NCBI RefSeq assembly: GCF_009796805.1
Contig: NZ_CP047029.1
Span: 3,300,001 to 3,364,000, forward strand
Direction: 5' to 3'
DNA length: 64,000 bases
Origin: Algibacter sp. L1A34
GTDB taxonomy: Bacteria > Bacteroidota > Bacteroidia > Flavobacteriales > Flavobacteriaceae
Shown here one piece after another: positions 38,132 to 51,725 of the stretch. The position numbers and the translations under genes were made by a program. The notes beneath the pieces were generated by a model. That model ran no database searches. It was given only the letters and a program-made list of their open reading frames with translations, and was not told where the DNA came from. Each line of letters begins with the position of its first letter. Within the stretch, counting starts at the first letter, position 1.

Positions 38132-38140
38132 TAGAAACGT

Positions 38141-38208
38141 TGACTGAAATTAAAACTGAGTTTAGAATTAAGGTTGTTAAAGTTTTTTTTTAACTCAGTT
38201 TTTTTTAG
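38141..38208. repeat. 68-bp repeat A with terminator-like hairpin
   Basis: Contains AAAACTGAGTT (38152-38162) and its complement AACTCAGTTTT (38192-38202) with a long loop, flanked by T-runs. It is closely similar to 39858-39924 in the same orientation. It lies directly after the ankyrin gene and can act as its terminator. Confidence 0.7.
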
Positions 38209-38232
38209 GGTATCTTACTTATATTTGACCTA

Positions 38233-39294
38233 ATGAAGAAAAAAATAGTAATTATTGGTGGTGGACTTTCCGGTTTGTATTTAGGATATAAATTAAAAAA
38301 AGAAGGCTTCTCTATCCAAATTCTAGAAGCGAATAATAGAATTGGTGGAAGAATTTTTACCAAAAAAAATGATCATACAAAAGTAGAATTAGGTGCCACT
38401 TGGCTCTGGAGATACAATGAAGAACTTATAAAGTTATGTGCTACACTACAAATTTCTTTATTTGAGCAAAACACGAAAGGTGATGCTTTATATGAAGCTT
38501 CAAATACCAATTTGCCAGAACGTTTTCAATTGCCAGGAAACCAAGAAATTAGTTATAGAATTGTTGGCGGAACGGCAACTATCTTAGAAAAACTGTCTAA
38601 CGATTTTTCAGAAGATGAATTGCAACGCAATCAGAAAGTTTTGCGCATTGAGGGTCAAGAAAATTCAATACACGTACTAACTGAAAATGCAACTTTTACT
38701 GCAGATATGGTTATTTCTACAATGCCACCACAACTCTTAGTTAATACGGTTGATTTTTCTTCTCAATTAGACCTCAATCTTTTAGAAATTGCAAATAATA
38801 CGCATACTTGGATGAAAGATTCCATTAAGTTTGCATTGGTTTATAAAACGCCGTTTTGGAAAGAAAAAGGACTGTCTGGAGTTGGTTTTAGTAATGTAGG
38901 TCCTTTTACAGAAATCTATGACCATTCTGATTTTGAAAATAATCATTTTGCATTAATGGGCTTTTTAAATGCAGGTTTAGCTAACGAAACCAAAGCGTAT
39001 AGAGAAGAAAAAATAAGAGCCCAACTTTTTAAGTTCTTTGGTGAAGCCGGAAAAAATTATCTTTATTATGATGAAAAAGTTTGGAGTAAAGAAAGCTTGT
39101 TACACTCAGCGACTACTAGGTTTCTAAATCCACATGTAAACAATGGCCATCCAGTCTATCAACAAAACTATTTAAATGGTAAATTTATAATTGCAGGTTC
39201 AGAAACGTCACCAAGCTATGGTGGTTATATGGAAGGTGCCATTTATAGAGGCAACCAAATTGTGAAACAATTAAAAATAAAATTTAAGAGATAG
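38233..39294 (+). CDS. FAD-dependent amine oxidase / NAD(P)-binding flavoprotein
   Basis: A 353-residue flavoprotein of the flavin monoamine oxidase family. The N-terminal Rossmann motif for FAD is complete: IVIIGGGLSGLYLGYKL, followed by E33-type LEANNRIGGRI. The C-terminal FAD-closing motif is AGSETSPSYGGYMEGAIYRG. It is shorter than typical MAO (about 430-450) and has no signal peptide, so the substrate is unclear. It stands alone between the two 67-68 bp repeats. Confidence 0.85.
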   Translation: MKKKIVIIGGGLSGLYLGYKLKKEGFSIQILEANNRIGGRIFTKKNDHTKVELGATWLWRYNEELIKLCATLQISLFEQNTKGDALYEASNTNLPERFQLPGNQEISYRIVGGTATILEKLSNDFSEDELQRNQKVLRIEGQENSIHVLTENATFTADMVISTMPPQLLVNTVDFSSQLDLNLLEIANNTHTWMKDSIKFALVYKTPFWKEKGLSGVGFSNVGPFTEIYDHSDFENNHFALMGFLNAGLANETKAYREEKIRAQLFKFFGEAGKNYLYYDEKVWSKESLLHSATTRFLNPHVNNGHPVYQQNYLNGKFIIAGSETSPSYGGYMEGAIYRGNQIVKQLKIKFKR

Positions 39295-39344
39295 AAGTGG
39301 GTTTTTAACTTCATAACTGAAGTTTTATAGCATTCTATTTAAAT

Positions 39345-39803
39345 CTATTTCGCTTCTTCTTTTTCTTCTTTTGTTTCGTCTAGCATATCTAAATAAAGGT
39401 CTTCAACATGCTCTCTTGCCCAAGTTGTTCTTCTTAAGAAACCAAGACTAGATTTCATAGTAGGATTGTAGATAAAACAGCGAAGATTAGTACGTTCTCC
39501 CAAATACGCCCAACCATAATGTGCTACCAAATGTTCTAAAACCTGTTTTAGTTTTACTCCATGAAACGGATTGCTTAGTTGTTCTTCTGTTGCTGGTCTT
39601 CTTATGCGTTTAGGCTTTGGTTGCAGTTCTGTTTCTTTGAGTGTTTTAGATGGTGTCTGTTTATTAGCCAATTTGTTCTTTTTTAGTGTATATGCGGATA
39701 TATGTTCTTCGTTGTTTACCGAAGCGTAAGTCTCCCTAAATGTTTGTTTTTCAATTGCTTTTAAGTTTTCAATATCTTGAAGACTTACTTGTTTGATTTT
39801 CAT
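39345..39803 (-). CDS. VF530 DNA-binding family protein with a GNAT-like N-terminus
   Basis: A 152-residue chimera. Residues about 70-140 are a VF530 (DUF2132) domain: NPFHGVKLKQVLEHLVAHYG, then GWAYLGERTNLRCFIYNP and SSLGFLRRTTWARE. Members are usually stand-alone proteins of about 70-80 residues, judged DNA-binding from structure. Residues 1-38 (MKIKQVSLQDIENLKAIEKQ, TFRETYASVNNEEHISAY) look like the first strand and helix of a GNAT acetyltransferase, which then stops abruptly. I read this as a deletion that joined the front of a GNAT gene to VF530. No internal Met lies between the two parts. Confidence 0.75.
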   Translation of the reverse strand: MKIKQVSLQDIENLKAIEKQTFRETYASVNNEEHISAYTLKKNKLANKQTPSKTLKETELQPKPKRIRRPATEEQLSNPFHGVKLKQVLEHLVAHYGWAYLGERTNLRCFIYNPTMKSSLGFLRRTTWAREHVEDLYLDMLDETKEEKEEAK

Positions 39804-39857
39804 TTAGTTTTGGTGATGGCTGGTTTTAACTTGTAGCTAACGTGTTAATAATTGATT

Positions 39858-39924
39858 TTACTAAAATTGAAAACTGAGTTTAAAATTAGCTGTTGATAGC
39901 TTTTTTTGAACTCAGTTTTTTTAG
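39858..39924. repeat. 67-bp repeat B with terminator-like hairpin
   Basis: Second copy of the element at 38141-38208, same orientation: AAAACTGAGTTTA...AACTCAGTTTTTTTAG, with about 80% matching positions by eye. It lies after the SLOG gene stop and may terminate the TIR operon. Confidence 0.7.
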
Positions 39925-39937
39925 ATTTAATTTGTCG

Positions 39938-40873
39938 TTAGAAACTTGATTTTTTCAGTCCCTTCATAATTAAATATGTTATTTCATGAATGTTTGTACT
40001 ACTGAACAATACCCTGTTTTCATCTATACTTAACTTATTAGTTAAAGATAGTTTTTCAATCGAAAAATCAGTAAATGTTGATATTATCTTTGAATATTCA
40101 CTAAATTCATATTTGTCTGAAATATATTTTTTAAAATCTTGAAGAAATGGTGTCGAATATTGATATTCATTTGTTAGTTCTTCAGGATTATGCCCTTCAA
40201 ATAGTTTGGCTAAAGATTGGCTTGCTCCACCAAAACCGCCAACAATAAATAATGGCTTTGAATTGATAAGAGTGTATAAAGCTTCTTCAATAATTCCAGG
40301 CATAAAACCTAAATATCCAGTTATTTTTCCACCAACAATAATTCTTGCATTACAATCAATAGCCATTTTTTCTCTCATAGCTTTAAAGCATTCACAGAAA
40401 ATATACCTGTCCTTCACTTTTTTTAATGGTTTATATTCAAATTCTTTATCAAAAGCAATATTAGGATTAGGTTTTACTATTTCAATTCCTATTTGCTTAG
40501 ACTTAAAATCAATTTCAGCTTTTCTATCTATTTGTTTGCTATAAGGTAGAGCAAAATAATTAATGAATCGTATAGAGGGGTCGTCACTTTTTTTATATTG
40601 ATTAGCTAATTCAGAAAAATAGTTTGTAAAACCATTTACTCTTAAGTCTCCTCCGTAAATTGCTGTTCCACCATTGGCAATAATATATCGGGCTATCTCA
40701 ATTGAAATATCATTTAGGTGGTGTTCACTCAATCCTAGATTTTCTAAATCTTTATTTATTGAAACAGAAATGGCTATTTTTTTATTAATAATTGGATTAA
40801 ATCTGTTTATAATTTCAATATTTTCATCGACCAATTCATTTTCTATCCCGGTTATATTCAATTCTTCATTCAT
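39938..40873 (-). CDS. Stand-alone SLOG-superfamily protein
   Basis: A 311-residue cytoplasmic protein. A Rossmann-like nucleotide-binding core shows IAISVS (33-38), a helix, then GGTAIYGGDLRVNGFT (68-83), RIIVGGKITGYLGFMPGIIE (177-196) and VGGFGGASQSL (211-221). The glycine-rich second motif followed by P-G-I-I-E-E and a final G-G-x-G-G is the layout of SLOG proteins, which bind nucleotide ligands. In Thoeris ThsA a C-terminal SLOG domain senses cyclic ADP-ribose-type signals and switches on SIR2. Here SLOG is separate and no SIR2 gene is present. It follows the tandem-TIR gene by 1 bp and is the last gene of the operon, so it is probably a sensing partner of that protein (inference). Confidence 0.72.
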   Translation of the reverse strand: MNEELNITGIENELVDENIEIINRFNPIINKKIAISVSINKDLENLGLSEHHLNDISIEIARYIIANGGTAIYGGDLRVNGFTNYFSELANQYKKSDDPSIRFINYFALPYSKQIDRKAEIDFKSKQIGIEIVKPNPNIAFDKEFEYKPLKKVKDRYIFCECFKAMREKMAIDCNARIIVGGKITGYLGFMPGIIEEALYTLINSKPLFIVGGFGGASQSLAKLFEGHNPEELTNEYQYSTPFLQDFKKYISDKYEFSEYSKIISTFTDFSIEKLSLTNKLSIDENRVLFSSTNIHEITYLIMKGLKKSSF

Positions 40874-40874
40874 A

Positions 40875-42047
40875 TTAAAAAAGATTTATTGGAGTAATAA
40901 ATTCAACTTCAGGATCTACTTCATTCAATATAGATAATTCTTCAATCCCAATAGGAGGGTCTGGATAAAGAATCATTAGTTTTTTGTCAATCTCTTTCTG
41001 ATATTTCTTGATGTTAACAAAGTTAAAAAGTTCGGGTGGTGAGGTAATTATCTTTACTTCGACATCTTGTTTAACTAGTTTACGATAGTTAGAAAGTAAT
41101 CTGAATTGATACAAATTGTTTAAAACTTGATATAATGTCAAATAAATAATTTTATAGAAACCAGTTTCGGTCTCGTCATCATTTAAAACAGTTGTGGGCA
41201 TATTTCCAAGGTAGGGGAAAGCTCTATTTTCGCCTTCTTTAATGTTATGAGCAACCACAATTGGGGATTTATATTTTTTTGCAATAAGAACCTCTTTGCG
41301 ACACCATTCTCTATTTGAATATTCATCTGTGTGAAACACTACAAGAGCTGAATTTAAAATCTCTTGTTTAAATTGTTCTGCAAAATCATAACCATTTGCA
41401 ATATCCACAGTATCAAAAAAAACATCTAGTTTTAAATTATCTTCAATAAAACGCTTAAATTTTAGGGTAGTTATTTCCCCATCATATTTTGCATGGCTTA
41501 AAAAAAGTTTTACAGGTGATCCAATTCTGTCTTCTTCTTTGTCTTTATATGTTGGATGAAAAGCCATTAATAATCGAGCACAGTCATGTAAAATTTCTGA
41601 TTTTATTTTTCGTATCGATTTTGTTAAATGTTCTCTTAATTCTAAATCTAGTTTTTCATCTAGGAACACAGTTCCATTAGTAAATTGGATATTACTTAAA
41701 CCACATCCAATTGTGTGTGCCTTGTCAAATAGAGAAACAGGGAATATTCTAGTATCATCATCTATTAGATTTACTAACTCTTTTGTGTATTCTTTGAAAG
41801 CATCATCTAAAAAATATTCCTCATCAATTAGTAAAATAACAGCATTTTTTTCAGCATTATTAAAATTAATTTCAACAGGTTTCTCATCAACAATTTTTTT
41901 AAACCGAAAATAAACAGGAATACCTAAACCTCTTGATAATGGATCTTTATAATTTCTACAAAATGTATTATAGAGAGCTTTGGCAATTGATTCACTTATT
42001 AGCGAATTTGGATGCCATACAATATAAATATTTAATGGATATTTCAT
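40875..42047 (-). CDS. Tandem protein: TIR-like N-terminus plus TIR domain, putative effector
   Basis: A 390-residue cytoplasmic protein. Residues 179-290 form a canonical TIR domain: VKLFLSHAKYDG, DVFFDTVDIANG, ALVVFHTDEYSNREWCRKE, with the putative catalytic Glu at E252. Residues 5-110 look like a second, degenerate TIR-like domain: LNIYIVWHP, GLGIPVYFR and AVILLIDEEY, with no obvious catalytic Glu. The C-terminus (300-390) has no recognised domain. TIR domains with this Glu break down NAD+ or make cyclic products. The 1-bp spacing to the SLOG gene implies equal expression, as for a two-subunit effector. The split with SLOG is unlike described ThsA proteins. Confidence 0.8.
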   Translation of the reverse strand: MKYPLNIYIVWHPNSLISESIAKALYNTFCRNYKDPLSRGLGIPVYFRFKKIVDEKPVEINFNNAEKNAVILLIDEEYFLDDAFKEYTKELVNLIDDDTRIFPVSLFDKAHTIGCGLSNIQFTNGTVFLDEKLDLELREHLTKSIRKIKSEILHDCARLLMAFHPTYKDKEEDRIGSPVKLFLSHAKYDGEITTLKFKRFIEDNLKLDVFFDTVDIANGYDFAEQFKQEILNSALVVFHTDEYSNREWCRKEVLIAKKYKSPIVVAHNIKEGENRAFPYLGNMPTTVLNDDETETGFYKIIYLTLYQVLNNLYQFRLLSNYRKLVKQDVEVKIITSPPELFNFVNIKKYQKEIDKKLMILYPDPPIGIEELSILNEVDPEVEFITPINLF

Positions 42048-42092
42048 ATATTAATAATTATCAGGAATTAAACATTATATTACTTAAAGTTT

Positions 42093-42653
42093 TTAATGTG
42101 TTTGATTGTGTATTTTACAAGATGTATTATATTTCATAATTGATTGTGAATTTACAATTAATTTATTTCTGGTACTTCTGGCATAGTATGCATCATCAAT
42201 CCATTCTCCAAGTTGATTTCCTGTTGTTGGATAAGACCAATATCTTCCATAACAATTAGAATGCTCTTGATTCCAATTTGCTTCAAATCTAGGTGGAAGG
42301 TGAGCAGAGTTATTTTGACTAGGCAAAACAATACTTATTAATCCATTTGGTGTATAATTACCTTGTCTTAAAGATGATTTTATTTCCCAATCTACATATC
42401 TTCTACTATGGGTGCAACTTCCTAAAAGGACAATTGTAACAGTTGAATCTTTTAAATATTTTTCTCGAATACGTCCCATTACATAGTCAGTGTTTGTACT
42501 GTCAATAAATTCATCATTATCGTTTGCACCAAGAACATAAGGTGTGAAAATGCCTAGATTATTAGCAAAATGATTTATAAAATTATCTACTTCAGTTCTA
42601 TCGCCTCTGAAGTGTGATATAAAAACTCTTCTTTTTATTCCTGACCAAGCCAT
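42093..42653 (-). CDS. ThsB/DUF1863-type TIR-like protein, copy c
   Basis: A 186-residue single-domain protein. Seen: RRVFISHFRGDRTEVDNFIN at the start, then VMGRIREKYLKDSTVTIVLL and GSCTHSRRYVDWEIKSSL. This T-V-T-x-V-L-x-G-x-x-T-x-x-R-x-x-x-x-W-E pattern matches the MTH538/ThsB TIR-like family (DUF1863); E90 aligns with its catalytic Glu. In Thoeris, ThsB senses phage and makes a cyclic NAD-derived signal. The C-terminal 70 residues differ from copies a and b. Third of three related genes in the operon. Confidence 0.8.
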   Translation of the reverse strand: MAWSGIKRRVFISHFRGDRTEVDNFINHFANNLGIFTPYVLGANDNDEFIDSTNTDYVMGRIREKYLKDSTVTIVLLGSCTHSRRYVDWEIKSSLRQGNYTPNGLISIVLPSQNNSAHLPPRFEANWNQEHSNCYGRYWSYPTTGNQLGEWIDDAYYARSTRNKLIVNSQSIMKYNTSCKIHNQTH

Positions 42654-42659
42654 AATTTA

Positions 42660-43202
42660 TTAGATTTTTATTCCTAGAAAGTTTATTGCATTACTTTCTT
42701 GTCGGTTTCTGTTATTGCGTATTAAATTTGCAGCATTATTTCTTTTCCGATAAGCATAATTTACTTTGCTTTCAAAATCTCTTTCTAAATTTTTCCATCT
42801 CATAGACACAGCATAACCTGAATCTATATTATCTTGTAATCTGTCTGGAATTGAATGATTTTGTCCTGGTAGAAAAATTGCTAAAAGACCATTTGGTTTA
42901 AATGATTTCTTTTTATCAAAAGGATGATTATAACCTCTTAAAGAAGCCCAAATTTCCCAATCTATCCATTTTCTATGCCCTGTTCTTGTTCCTATTAAAA
43001 TAATTGTAACTGAACAAGTTCTCATTTTACTTCTAATCTTATTGTATATAGTTTCATTTGTTAAATGACCAATATCTGTTTTAAGAGAATAATCAGAAAC
43101 TTTCATACTCTTTACAGTCTTTCTTAATTTAGAAAGATATTTTTGGTCATTATCGTGATGATAACTTATAAAGCAATTTCTTGTTTTTTTCTCGATGTTC
43201 AT
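42660..43202 (-). CDS. ThsB/DUF1863-type TIR-like protein, copy b
   Basis: A 180-residue relative of the preceding and following genes: NCFISYHHDNDQKY, ETIYNKIRSKMRTCSVTIIL, IGTRTGHRKWIDWEIWASL. The putative catalytic Glu is E83. It shares the SYHHDND start with copy a but is otherwise well diverged, so the copies are old. The C-terminal tail is asparagine- and arginine-rich (NNAANLIRNNRNRQESNA). Separated from copy c by 6 bp and from copy a by 40 bp. Confidence 0.8.
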   Translation of the reverse strand: MNIEKKTRNCFISYHHDNDQKYLSKLRKTVKSMKVSDYSLKTDIGHLTNETIYNKIRSKMRTCSVTIILIGTRTGHRKWIDWEIWASLRGYNHPFDKKKSFKPNGLLAIFLPGQNHSIPDRLQDNIDSGYAVSMRWKNLERDFESKVNYAYRKRNNAANLIRNNRNRQESNAINFLGIKI

Positions 43203-43242
43203 TTAATTGAAGGAAAATTTTTTTATTAATTCACTTTTAATT

Positions 43243-43854
43243 TTAAGAGTTGTTTCTTTTCATTGTTCTGCTTAAATCATATTCACAAGTAGCTTTATCT
43301 TCAAAAGTTGCGTGAATCAAAAAACTAAGCTTTTCAATATTAATTTCATTCCAGTTAACTACTGATATTTTAGCTTCTGTTTTTAATAAATTATCTATTA
43401 TTCTTGAAGGTAAATAAGGATATCTTCTTTCGTATTCTGCTCTTGTATCAATTGATGTCCAAAAATTATTTTCTGGATGAACCTTTTCTTTTTCACCTGA
43501 ATGAGTTGCAGTGTAATAGGTAGAGCCAGTGCTAGGTAAATTGAGAACAAGAATACCAGATTTTTTATTCAGAGAACCATTTATCATACTAGATTTTAAT
43601 TCCCAATCAATATGTTTTCTATTCTTAGTTTCTGTACCAACAAGTAAAATAGTAACTGTTGTATCTTTTAAGTAATTATCTCTAATTATTTGCCTTATAG
43701 TTTGATTATCTAATCTATCATCAATGTCTCCTGTATCTACAGAACCATCTATGAAAATATTATGTAACTTATTTAATCTTAATAATTCATTTTTATACCA
43801 TTGGTCATTATCGTGATGATAACTGATAAATACTTTGTGTTTTGTTTGGCTCAT
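43243..43854 (-). CDS. ThsB/DUF1863-type TIR-like protein, copy a
   Basis: A 203-residue protein starting MSQTKHKVFISYHHDNDQW. The start at 43854 overlaps the upstream TIR stop as TAATG, a coupling junction; an upstream in-frame ATG at 43866 is less likely. The core reads IRDNYLKDTTVTILLVGTET and then RKHIDWELKSSM, putting the putative catalytic Glu at E85. The C-terminal 90 residues are unlike copies b and c. If these proteins are phage sensors, the variable C-termini would be the recognition parts (inference). Confidence 0.8.
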   Translation of the reverse strand: MSQTKHKVFISYHHDNDQWYKNELLRLNKLHNIFIDGSVDTGDIDDRLDNQTIRQIIRDNYLKDTTVTILLVGTETKNRKHIDWELKSSMINGSLNKKSGILVLNLPSTGSTYYTATHSGEKEKVHPENNFWTSIDTRAEYERRYPYLPSRIIDNLLKTEAKISVVNWNEINIEKLSFLIHATFEDKATCEYDLSRTMKRNNS

Positions 43855-44456
43855 TATAATTTCCAATTTAATACATTATCTAATGGGTGATTTAGTTGAT
43901 AATGGGAAAACATTCTAGTCTCATTTATCATTGATTTTTCTAGCTGATTGGAGATGATTGAAATATAGGAGTTAAGCGATTTAGTTCCTTTGAGAATATT
44001 TCCTATTTGCATAAATGTTGGTAATTCTTTTTCAGCAATATCTTTTAAAGTTAAAATTGATAGTTTAGAATTATCAGTATTTGATGTTGCCTCAATAATT
44101 GTTGAATGACCATAGCCGACTTCAAAAGGAACCCATTGAGATTTATAAGTTTTCTCAGAAACTAAAACTAGCATATGTGTACTTTCAGCAATACCTTTTT
44201 TTATGTTTTCTGTTATTTTATTAGCATTTCCACTGAATACAGCACTTTGCAGCTCTGCACTTTCCTCATCCAAAAAATAGTCAATTTCTGCATCAGAAAG
44301 ATATTTAGCAATGGTTCTACAAGCTGGTTTATCTTCTTTTTTATGACTTAAAAATACACAAGGTCTATTTCTAATTTCAGTGAAATTTATGGTTTCTAAT
44401 GTAAATGTTAGAGCTTGTATTGCGTCAGCTTTGTTAATTCCTTTTATCCTTTTCAT
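43854..44456 (-). CDS. TIR-domain protein, first gene of the operon
   Basis: A 200-residue protein. I use ATG 44456 (MKRIKGINKADAIQ) rather than the TTG 21 bp upstream. Residues 31-140 are a TIR domain of the classical prokaryotic type: PCVFLSHKKEDKPACRTIAK, YLSDAEIDYFLDEES, ITENIKKGIAESTHMLVLVS and SQWVPFEVGYG, with putative catalytic E112. The S-x-W-V-P-F-E form is common in TIR proteins linked to bacterial defence. The remaining 60 residues are uncharacterised. It is coupled to the next gene by a TAATG overlap. Confidence 0.8.
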   Translation of the reverse strand: MKRIKGINKADAIQALTFTLETINFTEIRNRPCVFLSHKKEDKPACRTIAKYLSDAEIDYFLDEESAELQSAVFSGNANKITENIKKGIAESTHMLVLVSEKTYKSQWVPFEVGYGHSTIIEATSNTDNSKLSILTLKDIAEKELPTFMQIGNILKGTKSLNSYISIISNQLEKSMINETRMFSHYQLNHPLDNVLNWKL

Positions 44457-44551
44457 TCGTTTTTTTATTAAGCACAACTAGTTCTATAACTACAAACACT
44501 GCTCATATCCTACAATAGAACAAATTATAGCCCATGTATTCCTATCATCAT

Positions 44552-44582
44552 CAAATCTAATTCATATTCGTAAGTAAATCAA
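44552..44582 (-). promoter_or_regulatory. Candidate promoter of the TIR/SLOG operon
   Basis: On the minus strand: TTG at 44582-44580, a 20-nt spacer, then TAGATTTG at 44559-44552, which fits the Bacteroidota -33/-7 consensus TTG-N(19-21)-TAnnTTTG. The expected start of transcription is about 90 nt before the ATG at 44456. Confidence 0.45.
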
Positions 44583-44643
44583 TACGTGGATCTACGTATA
44601 TTTCATTCTAATTACAGCTAAATTATAACATTCTAAGTTAAGA

Positions 44644-44680
44644 ATTTTACGGTAAACCGTAGAACCAAAAAATTAAAAAT
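44644..44680 (-). repeat. Left copy of the element bracketing the epimerase fragment
   Basis: TTTTACGGTAAACCGTA followed by an A-rich stretch, leading into the hairpin at 44681-44712. A similar arrangement (TTTTACGGGTAACCGTA, A-rich, hairpin) is at 45080-45147, on the other side of the truncated gene. Confidence 0.45.
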
Positions 44681-44712
44681 AAAATCCACCATGCTTTCGC
44701 AAAGTGGTTTTA
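44681..44712 (-). terminator. Terminator after the epimerase fragment
   Basis: On the minus strand AAAACCAC and GTGGATTTT pair around a loop containing GC-GAAA-GC, followed by T-rich sequence. The loop and right arm share GCTTTCGCAAAGTGGTTTT (plus strand) with the hairpin at 51726-51757. Confidence 0.55.
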
Positions 44713-45072
44713 AGTATGTTTCTTTCTTATAAAATTTACTGCATTTTTCAAGCACTTCAAGGCTTCTTCTAAGGCTTGTTTAGATGGTTTTGGGTTAAAA
44801 CCTAAAACGCTTTTAGAAGCACTAATATCATAATCTTGTTTTAATCCATAAAACATATCGAGATAATGCCTTTGGAGTAAAGGTTCTTTTCCAGTTATTT
44901 TACTACTAAATTCCATAAGCCCAGCAACGGCGTATAATAGACATTTTGGAACTGTTTTTGGGGTTTTAATTTTGCCTACTTCTTTTTTTTGTCTTTTTTC
45001 GGCTTGTTCAGACTTTATACTTGTAAAAATTAATTCATGTTTTTTTACAAAGGCTAAATTAGAACAGTACAT
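44710..45072 (-). pseudogene. Truncated NAD-dependent epimerase/dehydratase (C-terminal fragment)
   Basis: A 120-codon frame whose last 80 residues (VPKCLLYAVAGLMEFSSKIT, GKEPLLQRHYLDMFYGLKQD, YDISASKSVLGFNPKPSKQA) match the substrate-domain end of extended SDR epimerases of about 330 residues. The Rossmann half with GxxGxxG and YxxxK is absent, and only 45 bp separate the start from the neighbouring hairpin. It cannot be catalytic. It sits exactly between two similar repeat/hairpin elements and beside the defence operon. Confidence 0.65.
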
Positions 45073-45079
45073 CAAATAT

Positions 45080-45147
45080 GTTTTACGGGTAACCGTAATT
45101 TTGAAAAAAAAGAGTAAAAAAAAACACCATCCTTGTGGAAAGTGTTT
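45080..45147 (-). terminator. Terminator with repeat element, right copy
   Basis: TTTTACGGGTAACCGTA (45080-45096) followed by an A-rich tract and the hairpin AAACAC / GTGTTT at 45122-45147. On the minus strand the hairpin ends in a run of about ten Ts, so it terminates the beta-lactamase-like gene at 45198-46412. Confidence 0.6.
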
Positions 45148-45197
45148 GTTCTAAAATTATAATTATTGAAGTCTGTAAATTTAAAACTTGCTGTTTT

Positions 45198-46412
45198 TTA
45201 ATCACTTAAATGCGCCAGTTTTCTGTATAATTCTAAATGCACAAGAGTTTGCACATAAGGGTTATTTTGATCGTAATAATTTTTATTGGCCGAATTTTTT
45301 ACAATAACCGTGTTTGTGGTTGGGTTGATATAGATATGCTGGTTAAATACGCCAATGGCCATAAACTCGCCTTCGTTACCATCGTTAATCCACCATTGAT
45401 AACCGTAACCTATGCCAGGGCTAGAGGAGTTTTTACTTACTGCTTGCAAATGTTCTTCGTTGGAATTTACGGAAGCTTCAAACCAACTTAGCGGTACAAT
45501 TTGTTTGCCATTCCAATTCCCTTTTTGGAGATACAGTTTTCCTAGTTTGGCATAATCTCTTAAGCAAGCATTTAGTCCGCCGTTTGCCATTTCCATGCCT
45601 TCGCCATCGGCTAACCAATAGGCATCGAATTCTGTGCCAATAGGTTTCCATATTTTTTCTTCTAGATAGTCGGTTAAACTTCTGCCGGTAGCTTTAACGA
45701 TAATCATGCCCAAAACATGGGTGTTAATGCTTACGTAATGGTTGTAAGTTCCGGGAGGTATGTCGTTAGTTAATGTGCTAGCAAAGGCATCTTGAGATTT
45801 TCCGGTAATAAAACCTTGCCAATATCTATTAATATCAGAATTGAGGTCGCTGTAGGTTTCGTCGAATTTAATACCTGTAGACATTTGTAAAACATCTTTT
45901 ATTTTTACACCATCGTAACCAGAGCCTTTTAATTCGGGTAAGTAGGTTTCTACGGTTTCATCGATACTTTTAATATAACCTTCTTCCATAGCGATGCCAA
46001 AAAGCGCCGACACATAAGATTTTGCCATAGACCAAGAGATATGCCGCACATCTTCTTTTTGTCCGCGCCAATAATCCTCGTACTGAATGGTATCATTTTG
46101 AATAAAAATAAAGCCTTGCGTGTACGATGAGTCTATGTACTTTAAAGTGTTGTAGGTTGTACCATTATGACTAAAATTTTCGGGTAATGTTATATTATTT
46201 ATTTTAGGAAATAGAAAAGGAGTATTGGCTTTTTTTACTGTTTTAGTAGGCAAATATTCGTCCATGTGTATAAACGAATATTCTTGATTTTTCATAGCCA
46301 TAGCGTCTTTAAACTCTTGGGCTTTTTTGTTGTTCTGGTTGTAGATCACAGCTGCTACTATTATAATTAGCAATAAAATGATAAATGGAATTTTGAGCTG
46401 TTTTAAATTCAT
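45198..46412 (-). CDS. Serine beta-lactamase-like hydrolase (NylB/class C fold)
   Basis: A 404-residue protein with one N-terminal membrane anchor (IPFIILLLIIIVAAVIY), so the enzyme faces the periplasm. The serine hydrolase domain has S-M-A-K in HISWSMAKSYVSAL (nucleophile and general base), Y-x-S in YNHYVSINTHVLG, and the helix ending GMEMANGGLNACLRDYAKLG. This arrangement matches 6-aminohexanoate-dimer hydrolase-like members. The substrate cannot be inferred. It is followed by a T-rich terminator and precedes, with two other minus-strand genes, the MRJP-like lipoprotein. Confidence 0.85.
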   Translation of the reverse strand: MNLKQLKIPFIILLLIIIVAAVIYNQNNKKAQEFKDAMAMKNQEYSFIHMDEYLPTKTVKKANTPFLFPKINNITLPENFSHNGTTYNTLKYIDSSYTQGFIFIQNDTIQYEDYWRGQKEDVRHISWSMAKSYVSALFGIAMEEGYIKSIDETVETYLPELKGSGYDGVKIKDVLQMSTGIKFDETYSDLNSDINRYWQGFITGKSQDAFASTLTNDIPPGTYNHYVSINTHVLGMIIVKATGRSLTDYLEEKIWKPIGTEFDAYWLADGEGMEMANGGLNACLRDYAKLGKLYLQKGNWNGKQIVPLSWFEASVNSNEEHLQAVSKNSSSPGIGYGYQWWINDGNEGEFMAIGVFNQHIYINPTTNTVIVKNSANKNYYDQNNPYVQTLVHLELYRKLAHLSD

Positions 46413-46541
46413 GGTTTACTATTTTTTTGAAATTATAAGTGTTCTTAATACATATCGTTCTTTTTTAAAACGCTCTCGATTTTATTGAGATTAACATATT
46501 TTTGAGCTTTTATTACAGCATTTACCAATAGCTTTTTATGC

Positions 46542-47579
46542 TTAGTTTATTTTCAGCTTATTTATGGTAAACTCCAATGCGCTTATATCGCCTTTTGCTT
46601 CATTAATTCTAGAATTTGTATAATACAGCTCGTTTTTATAAATACTAAAAGTATCGGCCCATTTTACTTGTTCGCCTTCTGCAACAACACTTATTTCACC
46701 GCTAGTAACATCTAGCTTCATAATTTTATTATGTTCTAAATCGGCATAAAAAAGTTGTCCTGATGCATCCATAATCATCCCGTCTGGAGCAGATGTTTTG
46801 GCTATATGTTTTACACCGTTTTCAATAGTTGCTTTATTTTGGCTCAATAGATTTTCGGTTGAAATAGCATAGAGATTATAACCGGTAAGTGCATGAAAAT
46901 AAAGCATATCGTTTTTAGTATCTAGCGCAATACCATCGGAATGTACTGTATTTTTCCAAATCCCGTTATTAAACGTTAATTGGTTGGTTTCTGCCAAGGT
47001 AGATTTGTGATTATCGAGCGCTCTAAAAGATGTTCTGGAAGCTATATCGATCACCACAAGGCCAGCATGACCAGAATCTGTTAAGTAAATTTTGCCCTTC
47101 TTTTTGTCTATGCGTAAGTCGTTAATGTAAGAGTCTTTATGAAAACTTTCCTCTTGTAAAACATAGATTTTTTCTAGTTTATTAGAAGACAGATTAAAAG
47201 CGAAAATTCTAGGGTTTACTATAACACCTTTAAATAACGGGTTGCGAGTATCGAGAACATACAACGTATTTTCGAAAGCAACTACCGATTGTACGGCCAC
47301 AAATACACTGTCGGTAACAGTTTTTCCAATATCCCAACTGTTCCAAGTTTGATTAGGAAAAGGTGTTGATGTAGTATTGGTAACTTCAATTACCGAGTTT
47401 TTAACCTGTTCGCGCCATCTCGGAAAGTTGGCAAAAACACGACCATTATCACTCACTGTAACACCAGTAACTTGTTGACCTTTAAAAGAGGCTATATTTT
47501 CAATTTCGGGCTTTTCAGAGGTGCAACTCCAAATTCCAAAGACAATAACTAGTATAAATATCTTTCTCATGTTTTCCAT
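46542..47579 (-). CDS. Major royal jelly/yellow-type six-bladed propeller lipoprotein
   Basis: A 345-residue lipoprotein (lipobox FGIWSC). The mature part follows the MRJP/yellow (L-dopachrome tautomerase-related) pattern: QVTGVTVSDNGRVFANFPRW at the start, then VLDTRNP, INDLRIDKKKGKIYLTDSG, SDGIALDTKNDMLYFHALTG and ADLEHNKIMKLD. These are six-bladed propellers; in bacteria the role is unknown. It stands between two serine beta-lactamase-like genes on the same strand. Confidence 0.85.
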   Translation of the reverse strand: MENMRKIFILVIVFGIWSCTSEKPEIENIASFKGQQVTGVTVSDNGRVFANFPRWREQVKNSVIEVTNTTSTPFPNQTWNSWDIGKTVTDSVFVAVQSVVAFENTLYVLDTRNPLFKGVIVNPRIFAFNLSSNKLEKIYVLQEESFHKDSYINDLRIDKKKGKIYLTDSGHAGLVVIDIASRTSFRALDNHKSTLAETNQLTFNNGIWKNTVHSDGIALDTKNDMLYFHALTGYNLYAISTENLLSQNKATIENGVKHIAKTSAPDGMIMDASGQLFYADLEHNKIMKLDVTSGEISVVAEGEQVKWADTFSIYKNELYYTNSRINEAKGDISALEFTINKLKIN

Positions 47580-47684
47580 TTAATTAAGCTACTAATTTAG
47601 CAAATATAACCGTAATAGAAACTTAAAAAGCTTTTGAAAATAGGGAAGTGGTTTCAGAAAAAACTATAGGTTTTATCTGTTTTA

Positions 47685-48920
47685 CTATTCTTTTTTTAAT
47701 TCGGTTTCGTACTTAATTAAAGCATTCCAAATGGATACGACTTCGGGCCAAAAATTATCATCAAAATCGGAGTCTGTATTTACTAAAAGTATTTTGCCTG
47801 TTTCAGTAATTGGATTAAAATACATGGCTGTCATCACGCCAGGATCCGATCCGTTATGGCCAATAACGTTGTCTTTAATTTTTATAAAGGCATTGCTAAA
47901 CTCCATAAAAATGCCAAATTGTTCTCCCGTTTCTATATTCGGGAATTGCTGTTTTTCAAATAACTTTTTATAGCTCGCTTTGCTTAAAAGTTCACCATTT
48001 CCCTTGTAGCCTTTCATTAACTCCGTTAAAAACAGGCCTAAATCTCTATTAGAAGTAATAAAACCACCATCGGCATAGGTGATTAGCGAATATTCTGCGA
48101 TTAGCATCTCTTTGTTTGCGAATAGTCTAGAACGCTGCGTGGTATCAATATCTTTAGAAGACCAACCAGACGATGTCATTTTTAAAGGTTTTAATATATA
48201 GTCCTTCGTAAATGCTTGGTAATCTTGTCCTGTTGCAAATTCAATAATTTGAGCACAAAGCGCAGCGCCTATATTTGAATAAGCTCTTAGTTTTCCTGGC
48301 TTGCTATTGGTAAACATACCTTTGCTATACCATTTTCCTTCGGGAGTAAGGCTGTTTTTAATAAATTCTATAAGCGAAATTTTAGATTCAGGCATGCCAA
48401 ACCAATCGTATACACCTTCGTTTTCATTATGCTTAGATTTTTTTAAGACATAGGATTTAGAATACACCTCGTCAAGATCATTTATAGAGCTCGTGTGGTA
48501 GGCGAGATGTTTAATTAAAATGGGTGTTTCAGGAAAATTAGGATTTGTAATTTCGAAAGGTAAATATTTATTTATGGGATCATTCAGATTTAATTTTCCC
48601 ATTTCCTGAGCTTTTAAAAGAGAAACTCCTATTAAAGTTTTTGATATGGAAGCAATATTTTGTGTGGTGTTTGGTGTGTACTTTTTTGTTAGTGCTATAT
48701 CTGTATAACCAAAGGCATTTTCATAGATTAAACCTTGATCATCAACGACAGAAACCGACAACCCAATGATAGCATCTTTTTTGAAAGCACTTTGCAAGTT
48801 GTTAGTGAGCGTATCGTTTATTGCCGTATAGTCTCTTTTGAGTGTTTTGTGAGATGCTTCTTTTTGTTTACACGAAAATAATATAGTTGATACTAAAAGA
48901 AATAGAAGTGTATTTTTCAT
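47685..48920 (-). CDS. Serine beta-lactamase-like lipoprotein
   Basis: A 411-residue lipoprotein (lipobox STILFSC, then KQKEA). Penicillin-binding-like motifs: S-x-x-K in IASISKTLIGVS, Y-x-N in RAYSNIGAAL, and the third-motif equivalent in VIGHNGSDPG. The family includes esterases, D-aminopeptidases and peptidoglycan-related hydrolases; I see nothing that decides. The signal and lipobox place it in the periplasm or outer membrane. It is not a close paralogue of the gene at 45198-46412. Confidence 0.85.
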   Translation of the reverse strand: MKNTLLFLLVSTILFSCKQKEASHKTLKRDYTAINDTLTNNLQSAFKKDAIIGLSVSVVDDQGLIYENAFGYTDIALTKKYTPNTTQNIASISKTLIGVSLLKAQEMGKLNLNDPINKYLPFEITNPNFPETPILIKHLAYHTSSINDLDEVYSKSYVLKKSKHNENEGVYDWFGMPESKISLIEFIKNSLTPEGKWYSKGMFTNSKPGKLRAYSNIGAALCAQIIEFATGQDYQAFTKDYILKPLKMTSSGWSSKDIDTTQRSRLFANKEMLIAEYSLITYADGGFITSNRDLGLFLTELMKGYKGNGELLSKASYKKLFEKQQFPNIETGEQFGIFMEFSNAFIKIKDNVIGHNGSDPGVMTAMYFNPITETGKILLVNTDSDFDDNFWPEVVSIWNALIKYETELKKE

Positions 48921-48960
48921 CTTGACTTAGTTTGTTTTATTAAATGTGTAATTGTATAGA

Positions 48961-50229
48961 TTAACAATCGTAATATTCTGGTGCCGTTATTATTTCTAAT
49001 CCGGTTAATTTAGATATTTTTTCTGTGTAACCATCAAAACTGTGGCAAGAACCGTAAAGAATGACATAGCTTCTATTATCGTTCTCAAAATTCAATTCTA
49101 AATAACTGGCACCTCCACCTTTTGCGGGCAGGACATTTTGAATAGTTAAAGATGAAATATCACATGTATTATAAACTTGAGAATAGTTCTTATCTGCAAA
49201 GCCAATTTTAGAATTTTTATGATCGACCCAAATAGTTACTGCATCGTTATTATTCGGTAAAAGATTTGCAGGTCTGCGTTTTATACTGCTATTTCTTTTG
49301 TAATCGGAAGATGTTTTAACGCTTGCATTAATAACAAGATATTCGCCAACTTCCATGATATTCTCGTAATCACTATTAGCTAATAATTCGGGATAATCAC
49401 GTTCGTTTTTTACAGAAAGGGATGTATATGCTCCATCAAATAGATACGTGCTATCATAAGTGTAAACTATGGAAATTACGATACCTTTAGCTTTAAATGA
49501 AAAGCTGTTTTGATCATCGCGCTCATAACCAAAGTATTGGTTTTCTTCTGAAAAATCTTTTTGAAAGCGTTCTTTTAAAGCGTAATAACTTTTATCTGAA
49601 TTTGAAACGTTGAAAGCATGTGTATAAAAATGCAATACAGGAACATCTGTTCTGGCATTATCAAAATACGCCTTAAAATCTGTTAAAATGATGTTCCCAA
49701 GTCTAACCGGATATTTAAAATTCAAAATCTTTTGGCCATAAGGCGACTCGGTAAAATAAACATGAGGATGCTGTTCTATATATTGATAGGTTGTGCTCCA
49801 GTTTATAAACGTTTTTTCTTGAGATTGTATTTCAAACCCTAATGCGTAATCATTATAGTTTTCATCAAGAATTTCAAAAGTTGTATTGTTTAATTTACGC
49901 CAAACTAGATGCTTTTGCTGGGTGGTTTTATTTATATTTTTGAAAAAAGCTGTATCGTTAAAATTAAACTTTTTAGATAATGTATTGTAAACTTTGGAGA
50001 AGCCTTTAAAATTAGTTGGCAACCAATTTTGATGATGATCAAATATAAATAATGAGGATACACCTTGTGCATTTACAACCATATAGGCGTATTGCATAGC
50101 ATTAATGTTAATCTCACAATTTTTAAAAGCATCGTTACTTCTGCAAATAATTTTGTTTTCTGCTATGTAAATTTCGCCTAGATTTTCTTCTTTAGGAAAT
50201 TTTCTTTTGTTTAAATATTTTCCAAACAT
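48961..50229 (-). CDS. Protein of unknown function
   Basis: A 422-residue protein with no signal peptide and no membrane helix. It is beta-rich and aromatic. The N-terminal part (about 15-90) and the C-terminal part (about 330-415) both look like small PH-like or sandwich domains, since each has a strand ending in a G-S/V-x-x-L/Y-x-I-F/L-Y/D pattern. I do not recognise a family. Its start lies 8 bp from the end of the HxlR regulator gene, so it is probably cotranscribed with that regulator. Confidence 0.55.
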   Translation of the reverse strand: MFGKYLNKRKFPKEENLGEIYIAENKIICRSNDAFKNCEININAMQYAYMVVNAQGVSSLFIFDHHQNWLPTNFKGFSKVYNTLSKKFNFNDTAFFKNINKTTQQKHLVWRKLNNTTFEILDENYNDYALGFEIQSQEKTFINWSTTYQYIEQHPHVYFTESPYGQKILNFKYPVRLGNIILTDFKAYFDNARTDVPVLHFYTHAFNVSNSDKSYYALKERFQKDFSEENQYFGYERDDQNSFSFKAKGIVISIVYTYDSTYLFDGAYTSLSVKNERDYPELLANSDYENIMEVGEYLVINASVKTSSDYKRNSSIKRRPANLLPNNNDAVTIWVDHKNSKIGFADKNYSQVYNTCDISSLTIQNVLPAKGGGASYLELNFENDNRSYVILYGSCHSFDGYTEKISKLTGLEIITAPEYYDC

Positions 50230-50236
50230 GTTGCTG

Positions 50237-50581
50237 CTATTTAAGATGCAAATTGCTCCATTCCATTATTTTGGTCAAGTTTTCTTTTAGCGATTTACCT
50301 TTTTCTGTTAATCGGTATTCAACTTTAGGTGGAATTACCGGATAAGCCTTTCGGTCTACTATTTTTAATTCCTCTAAGTGTTTTAATTGCTGCGATAGCA
50401 TTTTCTGGCTTATGCCGTCTATGGCTTTATCCAATTCATTAAAGCGCATCACGTCGTTTAACAATAAAAGCCAAATAATAACAGGTTTCCATTTGCCACC
50501 AATTTGCTCCATAAATAGTGTTATTGGGCATTCTTTGGCTTTTTGATATTTTTTTTTAATTTTTTTTTCCTCTGTTTTCAT
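50237..50581 (-). CDS. HxlR-family transcriptional regulator
   Basis: A 114-residue winged-helix regulator. The family pattern is clear: CPITLFMEQIGGKWKPVIIW with a conserved N-terminal Cys, then RFNELDKAIDGISQKMLSQQ (recognition helix) and VEYRLTEKGKSL. Members respond to aldehydes, quinones or disulfide stress, sometimes through the Cys. It is divergent from the SDR gene at 50678, and the space between holds a good inverted repeat, so it likely represses that gene and itself. Confidence 0.93.
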   Translation of the reverse strand: MKTEEKKIKKKYQKAKECPITLFMEQIGGKWKPVIIWLLLLNDVMRFNELDKAIDGISQKMLSQQLKHLEELKIVDRKAYPVIPPKVEYRLTEKGKSLKENLTKIMEWSNLHLK

Positions 50582-50613
50582 TTTAATAGCGATTTTCCGA
50601 CCAATTAGTTAGT

Positions 50614-50633
50614 TACTTACCTAAAAGTAAGTA
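50614..50633. promoter_or_regulatory. Candidate HxlR operator
   Basis: An inverted repeat TACTTAC-CTAAAA-GTAAGTA, 7 bp arms and 6 bp spacer, in the 96-bp divergent region between the regulator and the SDR gene. Spacing of about one helix turn fits binding of an HxlR dimer. Confidence 0.65.
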
Positions 50634-50677
50634 CTTGCCAAATGTAAAGTTATTTACCAAATTTGCAAAAAAACAAT

Positions 50678-51415
50678 ATGGATAGCAAAAAAATAGTGAT
50701 TACAGGCGGCACAACAGGTATTGGTTACGCTTGCGCGGAATATCTCATCGGGTTAAATTACCAAGTGATTATAACGGGTAGAACCCAAGAAAACTTAGAT
50801 CGTGCCATTTCTAAATTAGGGCATCAAGCATTCGGGATTCTGTCAGACACATCATCTTTAAGTGCTATTGATGATTTAGTACTAAACGTTAAAAAAGAGT
50901 TCGGAACCATTGATGGTTTGTTCGTTAATGCGGGTATATTTAAAGGGTCTAGTTTTGAAAGTACTTCCGAAGCATTATTTGATGACACCATGAATATTAA
51001 TTTTAAAGGCGCTTTTTTTACCATTCAAAAATTTATTTCCATTTTAAAAAATCCATCGAGTGTTGTTTTAAATACGTCTATTGTGGTTTTTAAAGCCTTT
51101 GCGAATACAAGTGTTTATACCGCAAGTAAAGCGGCGCTGGAGAGTTTATCACAAGTTTTGAATATAGAACTTGCAGATCGAGGCATTCGGGTAAATGTAG
51201 TAAGTCCTGGTGTTACGGAAAGTCCAATTCAAAAAAAATCTGGAATGACGGACGAAGCTATTAGTAATTTGTTAGAGCATTTTTCAGCAACATCTCCCAT
51301 TGGTCGTATTGTTCAACCTACCGATATTGCACCCATGGTAGAATTTCTACTTTCGGATAAATCGTTAGTGTTAAGAAATGAAAAAATTGTTATCGATGGT
51401 GGAACAACGCTTTAG
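50678..51415 (+). CDS. Short-chain dehydrogenase/reductase
   Basis: A 245-residue classical SDR. NAD(P) motif TGGTTGIGYACAEYL, the D/N-A-G site LFVNAGIF, catalytic S in NTSIVVF and Y-x-x-x-K in VYTASKAALESL, and C-terminal S-P-G-V-T-E-S-P. I use ATG 50678; the frame can be extended to TTG 50663, but that would place the start in the promoter. R-T after the second strand suggests NADPH. The divergent HxlR regulator and operator suggest induction by a small electrophile or aldehyde substrate. Confidence 0.92.
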   Translation: MDSKKIVITGGTTGIGYACAEYLIGLNYQVIITGRTQENLDRAISKLGHQAFGILSDTSSLSAIDDLVLNVKKEFGTIDGLFVNAGIFKGSSFESTSEALFDDTMNINFKGAFFTIQKFISILKNPSSVVLNTSIVVFKAFANTSVYTASKAALESLSQVLNIELADRGIRVNVVSPGVTESPIQKKSGMTDEAISNLLEHFSATSPIGRIVQPTDIAPMVEFLLSDKSLVLRNEKIVIDGGTTL

Positions 51416-51435
51416 TTAATCATGTGAAAAGACTT

Positions 51436-51657
51436 TTATTCCAGATTGTAATTTGCGTTTGCCCATTTTACGGTGGGTTTAATATACCCTTTTACAATGT
51501 CTTCACTTAAAAAATAGACATAGCGCTCAACTTTTCCGGCTTCTAAAAGTTTGGTTTGCGCTGTTAGGTGTTTGCAAATAAAACAATGTTGAACGAAGCG
51601 AGTATCTTCTTCTGTTAAAGTAAATCGCGATTGAATATAGTTTAGTAAGTTTTTCAT
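51436..51657 (-). pseudogene. Truncated Crp/Fnr-family regulator (N-terminal fragment)
   Basis: A 73-codon frame. The first about 58 residues (MKNLLNYIQSRFTLTEEDTR, FICKHLTAQTKLLEAGKVER, YVYFLSEDIVKGY) match the start of a cyclic-nucleotide-binding-type regulator of about 190 residues. It then ends in unrelated residues and a stop. The rest of the effector domain and the HTH are missing, and the SDR gene end is only 20 bp away. It is a remnant. Confidence 0.6.
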
Positions 51658-51725
51658 GAGCTTGCTTTGAATAGTGTAGAAGACTCTTCATTTCTAACAA
51701 ACAAAGACAAACATCATATAAAACA

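Follow-up and report, generated by a model that had tools for sequence, protein, structure and literature searches.

Six genes in the 64,000-nucleotide window analysed here, a single stretch of Algibacter sp. L1A34 DNA, probably constitute a Thoeris-like antiviral operon, in which TIR sensors would generate an NAD-derived signal that is received by a SLOG protein and passed to a TIR NADase (TIR390), and in which the sensors have been exchanged among loci. The sequence basis of this reading comprises the parts themselves, their linkage and fusion, the conserved catalytic positions, the discordance between sensors and effectors and the absence of the operon from the congeners tested.

The six genes run from 44456 to 39938 and all lie on the minus strand, in the order T0 (43854-44456, 200 aa, ATG start), sensor copies a (43243-43854, 203 aa), b (42660-43202, 180 aa) and c (42093-42653, 186 aa), TIR390 (40875-42047, 390 aa) and SLOG (39938-40873, 311 aa). 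T0 and a overlap by one base (TAATG), and the remaining intergenic gaps are 40 (a-b), 6 (b-c), 45 (c-TIR390) and 1 base (TIR390-SLOG); given the shared strand and gaps of at most 45 bases, a single operon is very likely. The first-pass annotation described a, b and c and left out T0, the fourth TIR gene, immediately before them and the two effector-type genes immediately after them. T0 scores above the cut-off for both TIR_2 (41.1 bits) and ThsB_TIR (34.3 bits), and its family retains the conserved F and the catalytic-position Glu in 13/13 members. An alternative start for T0, a TTG at 44477, would give a longer product, and its orthologue in genome G711 begins at a nearby equivalent Met.

A 66-68-bp repeat, 84% identical between its copies at 38140-38205 and 39857-39922, contains a palindrome and a T-run (AAACTGAGTTT...AACTCAGTTTTTTT). 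The palindrome with T-run that follows the operon (39870-39919, no strand assigned) was recovered as an inverted match in self-BLAST and is a weak call, being absent from a simple terminator scan; it is probably the terminator of the operon and a recurrent element. A promoter scan returned sites no more numerous than in shuffled sequences. ThsB_TIR was absent from all four same-genus genomes tested, PF18163 was absent from both congeners included in the family-wide draw (2 genomes), and the one congener readable beyond the flanking gene carries different genes at the operon position; as far as tested, the operon is absent from the four same-genus genomes. Just upstream of the operon lies a truncated remnant of an epimerase-like gene (44710-45075), which encodes 341 aa in a congener (L097:3976-5001). 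Gene content across 38206-51701 varies among congeners, and the region may be a hot spot of turnover.

Copies a, b and c match the Pfam ThsB_TIR family (PF08937) at 73.6, 67.9 and 60.5 bits, respectively, all far above the curated cut-off of 21.2 bits, and they align with one another in BLASTP essentially over the core only, with E-values of 1e-15 to 3e-15, so that their likeness is not due to chance. Identities in pairwise alignment were 43% (core) and 12% (tail) for a-b, 35% and 13% for a-c, and 28% and 27% for b-c. Profile, BLASTP and alignment results thus confirm the initial description of three adjacent ThsB-like genes with a common TIR core and unrelated tails. The conserved Glu was found exactly where it had been placed (E85 in a, E83 in b and E90 in c), and the core consensus printed with it held at most positions, the exceptions being the first T (S-V-T in b) and G-T-x-T (G-S-C-T in c), which gives a corrected form of [TS]-V-T-x-x-L-x-G-[TS]-x-T-x-x-R-x-x-x-D-W-E. 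An upstream Phe is present in a, b, c and nearly all members of their families, and the catalytic-position Glu is kept in all sensor families. By analogy with Thoeris, a, b and c would produce a cADPR-type signal upon infection.

Phylogenetic analysis of 67 short TIR proteins, with support given as pairs of values, resolved T0 and the three copies into four supported groups distinct from one another. Copy a belongs to the A family, with members in Flavobacteriaceae, Chlorobiota, Acidobacteriota, Rhodothermota, Klebsiella and Pseudomonas (support 100/100), copy b to the B family, a clade of 6 (100/99), and copy c to the C family, a pair (100/100). The closest relative of a is 90% identical (core 91%) and encoded in G711, a genome of another genus that also holds the closest relative of T0 (77%); those of b and c are in locus L023 (73%) and in G448, a genome of the same family and another genus (82-83%; 83% over all 186 residues). 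Because these nearest relatives lie in other lineages, the copies diverged before the strain arose and did not originate in it. Recent duplication within the strain is ruled out by the tree and the identities, as a, b and c do not group together. The proposal that the set is old and maintained was therefore upheld, each copy representing a distinct family that has orthologues in further genera or phyla and all three being under purifying selection.

The accompanying view of the tails as the varying part was not supported, since all three are conserved across species, an outcome that the first-pass annotation itself had named as refuting, with identities to the nearest orthologue used of 86% (a), 65% (b) and 77% (c); further comparisons of the tail of a gave 60% against a Chlorobiota MAG and 51% against Klebsiella. 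Pairwise dN/dS counts, in which dS was saturated in several comparisons, were 2 to 6 times higher in the tail than in the core where dS was unsaturated, and never near 1 (0.068 in the core and 0.144 in the tail of a; 0.036 and 0.237 in c). On these counts, the tails of a, b and c are less constrained than the cores yet under purifying selection, and fast or positive selection on the tails was rejected, the pairwise ratios being well under 1 (with the same saturation of dS). Judged from sequence, the tails mark distinct sensor families and are not freely diversifying recognition surfaces, and the tree and identities indicate that sensors a, b and c were gathered singly from other lineages, not duplicated in situ.

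Comparison of 35 loci collected with the SLOG protein and the PF18163 profile showed a different pattern for the effector genes. TIR390 adjoins or is fused to SLOG in 32/35 loci, from Bacteroidota, Chlorobiota, Rhodothermota, Acidobacteriota, Pseudomonadota, Bacillota, Cyanobacteriota and one archaeal MAG, and the two form a single polypeptide in 7 (Chlorobiaceae L028, Desulfoluna L030, Methanoplasma L032, Rhodothermales L033, Priestia L042, Gloeothece L043 and Aureispira L044). In 28/35 loci, one or more additional TIR genes occur in the neighbourhood (TIR390 pieces in L036 and L046 excluded). The parts list is not obligatory, as SLOG occurs without TIR390 in three loci (L026, L029 and L039) and effector loci occur without a nearby sensor in L031, L032 and L040. 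Over 186 locus pairs, which are non-independent, the identities of TIR390 and SLOG were correlated at r = 0.95 and those of sensor and TIR390 at 0.67. Between the window and Flavobacterium loci L018-L020, TIR390 is 69% and SLOG about 60% identical and T0 only 31-35%; between the window and G448, sensor c is 83% identical, TIR390 46% and SLOG 33%. This reversal in the sign of the sensor-effector discordance fits sensor exchange and is not easily explained by rate differences alone. In G711, T0 and a occur together beside DUF4297-HerA genes, and SLOG and TIR390 were not found near them in the 16 kb read. One conserved effector pair occurs with at least six sensor families in differing combinations, including B with D but without A, and C with D. 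These comparisons suggest that TIR390 and SLOG are passed on together and that the sensors are swappable cassettes mixed among loci.

The same loci bear on the extent to which the sensors act alone. In Staphylococcus aureus, a phage capsid protein joins ThsB1 to ThsB2 as one sensor, with the active site needed only in ThsB2 (PMC12578639), and the short TIRs of the window could likewise be obligate partners in one heteromeric sensor, T0 or one of the copies binding the phage trigger and another copy acting as the cyclase. The one-base overlap of T0 and a and their co-occurrence in G711 would suit such an arrangement, which we nevertheless consider somewhat unlikely, as an A-family sensor is the sole sensor in five loci (L034, L037, L038, L045 and L066), the combinations listed above reveal no fixed pair, and all families retain the catalytic-position Glu. 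Where Bacillus systems encode several ThsBs, these are believed to work independently of one another, and the literature infers that such multiplicity widens phage recognition (PMC11204291). Independent ThsBs as in Bacillus and paired ThsBs as in S. aureus would each fit parts of the data, with A alone in five loci and T0 and a apparently coupled.

The cassette was found in type I restriction-modification (R-M) operons, a defence context, and on plasmids and a viral contig. SLOG, mostly with TIR390 and sensors, lies within or beside type I R-M operons in L024, L025, L026, L031, L039 and L069, between hsdS-type and hsdR-type genes (HsdM and HsdS confirmed with Pfam in L024 only, the other five judged by eye). 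On the conjugative Klebsiella plasmid pKpnB199 (L045), transposase genes flank the cassette on both sides, and the viral contig (L066) carries an integrase-like gene, judged by eye; both have a compact three-gene form, its A-family sensor being divergent from TIR390-SLOG, and among the forms that include a sensor this is the smallest seen. This viral contig carries a SLOG homologue, and none was found in phage genomes among 50,697 records. Predicted DNA-base modification genes accompany the cassette in other loci, with a 5-hmdU kinase helical domain (PF18723) in L018, Nmad2 (PF18753) in L018 and L041 and a thymidylate-synthase-like gene also in L041, in every case together with the E-family sensor; the neighbours in L020 and L073 look alike by eye.

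An unnamed family of small proteins recurs near TIR sensors (L071:8337-8858, L027:9522-10202, L042:2809-3531, L044:7283-7948, L028:1058-1744 and L030:2472-3074), and several of them seem, by eye, to begin with a membrane segment near the N terminus; scans of four of them gave no Pfam match and no convincing NCBIfam match, and the family is possibly another effector or partner. Two further Flavobacteriaceae loci place ThsB-like genes beside other proteins: in L070:7109-10538 the neighbour is a caspase-domain protein, an arrangement like that of type IV Thoeris, and in L072:7213-9218 it is a SLATT membrane protein.

The last gene of the operon encodes a SLOG cluster 2 protein (PF18163, E 1.5e-72, 244.8 bits against a cut-off of 25.3). 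Its predicted structure (pLDDT 87.5; rows from plasmid records were left out of the alignments behind the structure models) had as top match the SLOG domain of BcThsA with 3'cADPR (Z 16.7, rmsd 2.8 over 184 residues), and TRPM2 also ranked high. Searching the sequences of solved structures with the SLOG profile gave nothing useful, and ThsA was not found in this way. Within the family, R167 and P192-G193-x-x-E196-E197 are invariant and the GGFGG motifs near-invariant; these resemble the catalytic architecture of LOG proteins, and LOG structures were matched at Z about 12, as would be expected if SLOG were a LOG-like N-glycosidase making, processing or removing the signal, not a passive receptor. 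Both roles are proposed for SLOG domains in PMC9503650. We regard an enzymatic role as quite unlikely, because the best match is the signal-binding ThsA SLOG, 4 to 5 Z units over the LOGs, and repeated fusion to a TIR effector suits a receptor better. The SLOG of ThsA binds the signal produced by ThsB (PMC11204291), and the structural model suggests that the window protein is probably a receptor of an NAD-derived signal, with the proviso that a common fold alone does not establish cADPR binding.

TIR390, the probable effector, matches TIR_2 at 37.7 bits and combines a degenerate TIR-like domain that lacks the catalytic Glu (residues about 1-110, by eye) with an intact TIR domain (residues 177-309), in which F182, W248, C249 and E252 are kept in 29/29 relatives. 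In the predicted structure (pLDDT 84.7), residues 178-305 match the TIR domain of SARM1 best (Z 16.1, rmsd 2.5 over 124), followed by the TIRs of SPARTA, with Cat1 also among the matches. An isomerase fold, suggested by the top Foldseek rows, was rejected as a multi-Rossmann coincidence with TM about 0.2 over the whole length. At the C terminus, residues 329-384 form an alpha/beta module in which the motifs PEL and YPDPP are near-invariant and which the fold comparison barely covers. On the model, TIR390 is probably an NAD-depleting killer enzyme. That it is instead a further signal-making or scaffold TIR, with the true effector encoded elsewhere, has a low probability in our judgement. Catalytic TIRs can in principle all be cyclases, and besides its intact TIR the protein carries a degenerate TIR-like domain and, at the C terminus, a module of no assigned role. 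Against this reading, no gene but TIR390 is so nearly always found with SLOG, E252 of TIR390 is invariant, the NAD-consuming TIRs of SARM1 and SPARTA are among its closest folds, and SIR2_2 is absent from the genome.

Comparison with known systems placed the operon closest to Thoeris. It shares with type I the ThsB_TIR sensors, often several, and a SLOG whose model is closest to that of ThsA, and differs in that the killing domain would be a TIR, not a SIR2, and the SLOG has a gene of its own or is joined to a TIR. A reading of the locus as a ThsA/ThsB type I system was not borne out, as a Pfam scan revealed no ThsA with SIR2 and SLOG domains in the operon and SIR2_2 (PF13289) had no match in the genome with a control that gave its match; STALD (PF18185) also had no match in the genome, but its control gave none either. 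An ordinary type I Thoeris with ThsA elsewhere in the genome, to which the ThsB_TIR identity of a, b and c might point, can be set aside as highly improbable given the absence of SIR2_2 and an operon with its own TIR and SLOG. No PADLOC 2023 model matches SLOG, and the TIRs match mostly PADLOC ThsB models.

Type III Thoeris, examined in five Bacteroidota genomes carrying NCBIfam ThcA, resembles the operon more closely, with a stand-alone SLOG (there about 200 aa), a TIR protein of ~390 aa whose N-terminal region is divergent, and short TIRs, T0-like and ThsB-like ones included, and with SLOG/TIR adjacency where the contig permits. In contrast to these loci, the window SLOG belongs to another family (PF18163, 311 aa) and the sensors fall in separate clades. 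TIR390 scored 36.8 bits against ThcB4 (NF058526), under the cut-off of 220, and the window SLOG had no match to ThcA (NF058525), for which its Klebsiella homologue reached 19.0 bits against a cut-off of 110. Profile-profile comparison linked TIR390 to ThcB4 over the TIR domain and the preceding part (probability 95.8%, E 7e-9) and SLOG to ThcA (probability 91.9%, E 7e-7). With the layout and remote homology of type III and scores far under the cut-offs, the system is termed type III-like, not type III, and a divergent, type III-like Thoeris is the best reading of these sequences.

Cat1 with cA4 and the TIR-SAVED and TIR-STING effectors of CBASS are similar in that a TIR NADase is gated by a nucleotide-binding module, whereas here TIR proteins, in place of a CD-NTase or Cas10, would supply the signal, and the sensor module is SLOG. 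TIR and SLOG families were predicted as NAD-signal systems by Burroughs, Iyer and Aravind, as cited in the accessible part of PMC9503650, where the six-part operon, the sensor families and sensor exchange are not described. The operon may already be covered by a December 2025 preprint on TIR signalling systems, and novelty is claimed with that reservation.

From these parts, we infer a defence function, the identity of the signal, the role of SLOG as receptor, the loss of NAD+, complex formation and the trigger of each sensor. T0, a, b and c would detect infection, each probably through a different trigger or in pairs such as T0 and a, and would turn NAD+ into an ADP-ribose-type signal. The stand-alone SLOG protein would bind this signal in complex with TIR390, and the signal-bound SLOG would switch on the NADase of the second TIR domain, so that NAD+ would fall and the infection abort. 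The effector pair would be passed on as a unit and the sensors acquired one at a time from other lineages. A more specific model, which we advance tentatively and hold to be possible, not probable, is a TIR-to-TIR relay, in which several TIR sensors, passing between lineages as cassettes of one or two genes, would supply one NAD-derived signal to a detachable SLOG receptor, and this receptor would turn on a second TIR enzyme. Being a TIR as well, the effector could add to the signal and so amplify the response. Under this model, the sensor repertoire would change through gene exchange around a constant effector, and not through diversification of the tails.

Divergent tails within one genome should not be equated with diversifying recognition, each tail being conserved within its own family. 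The stand-alone SLOG and TIR pairs suggest a second outlet of TIR signalling beside the SIR2-SLOG of ThsA. With a constant effector readout and swappable sensors, the question of why there are several ThsBs becomes testable, and the phage and the signal that belong to each sensor family could be learned.
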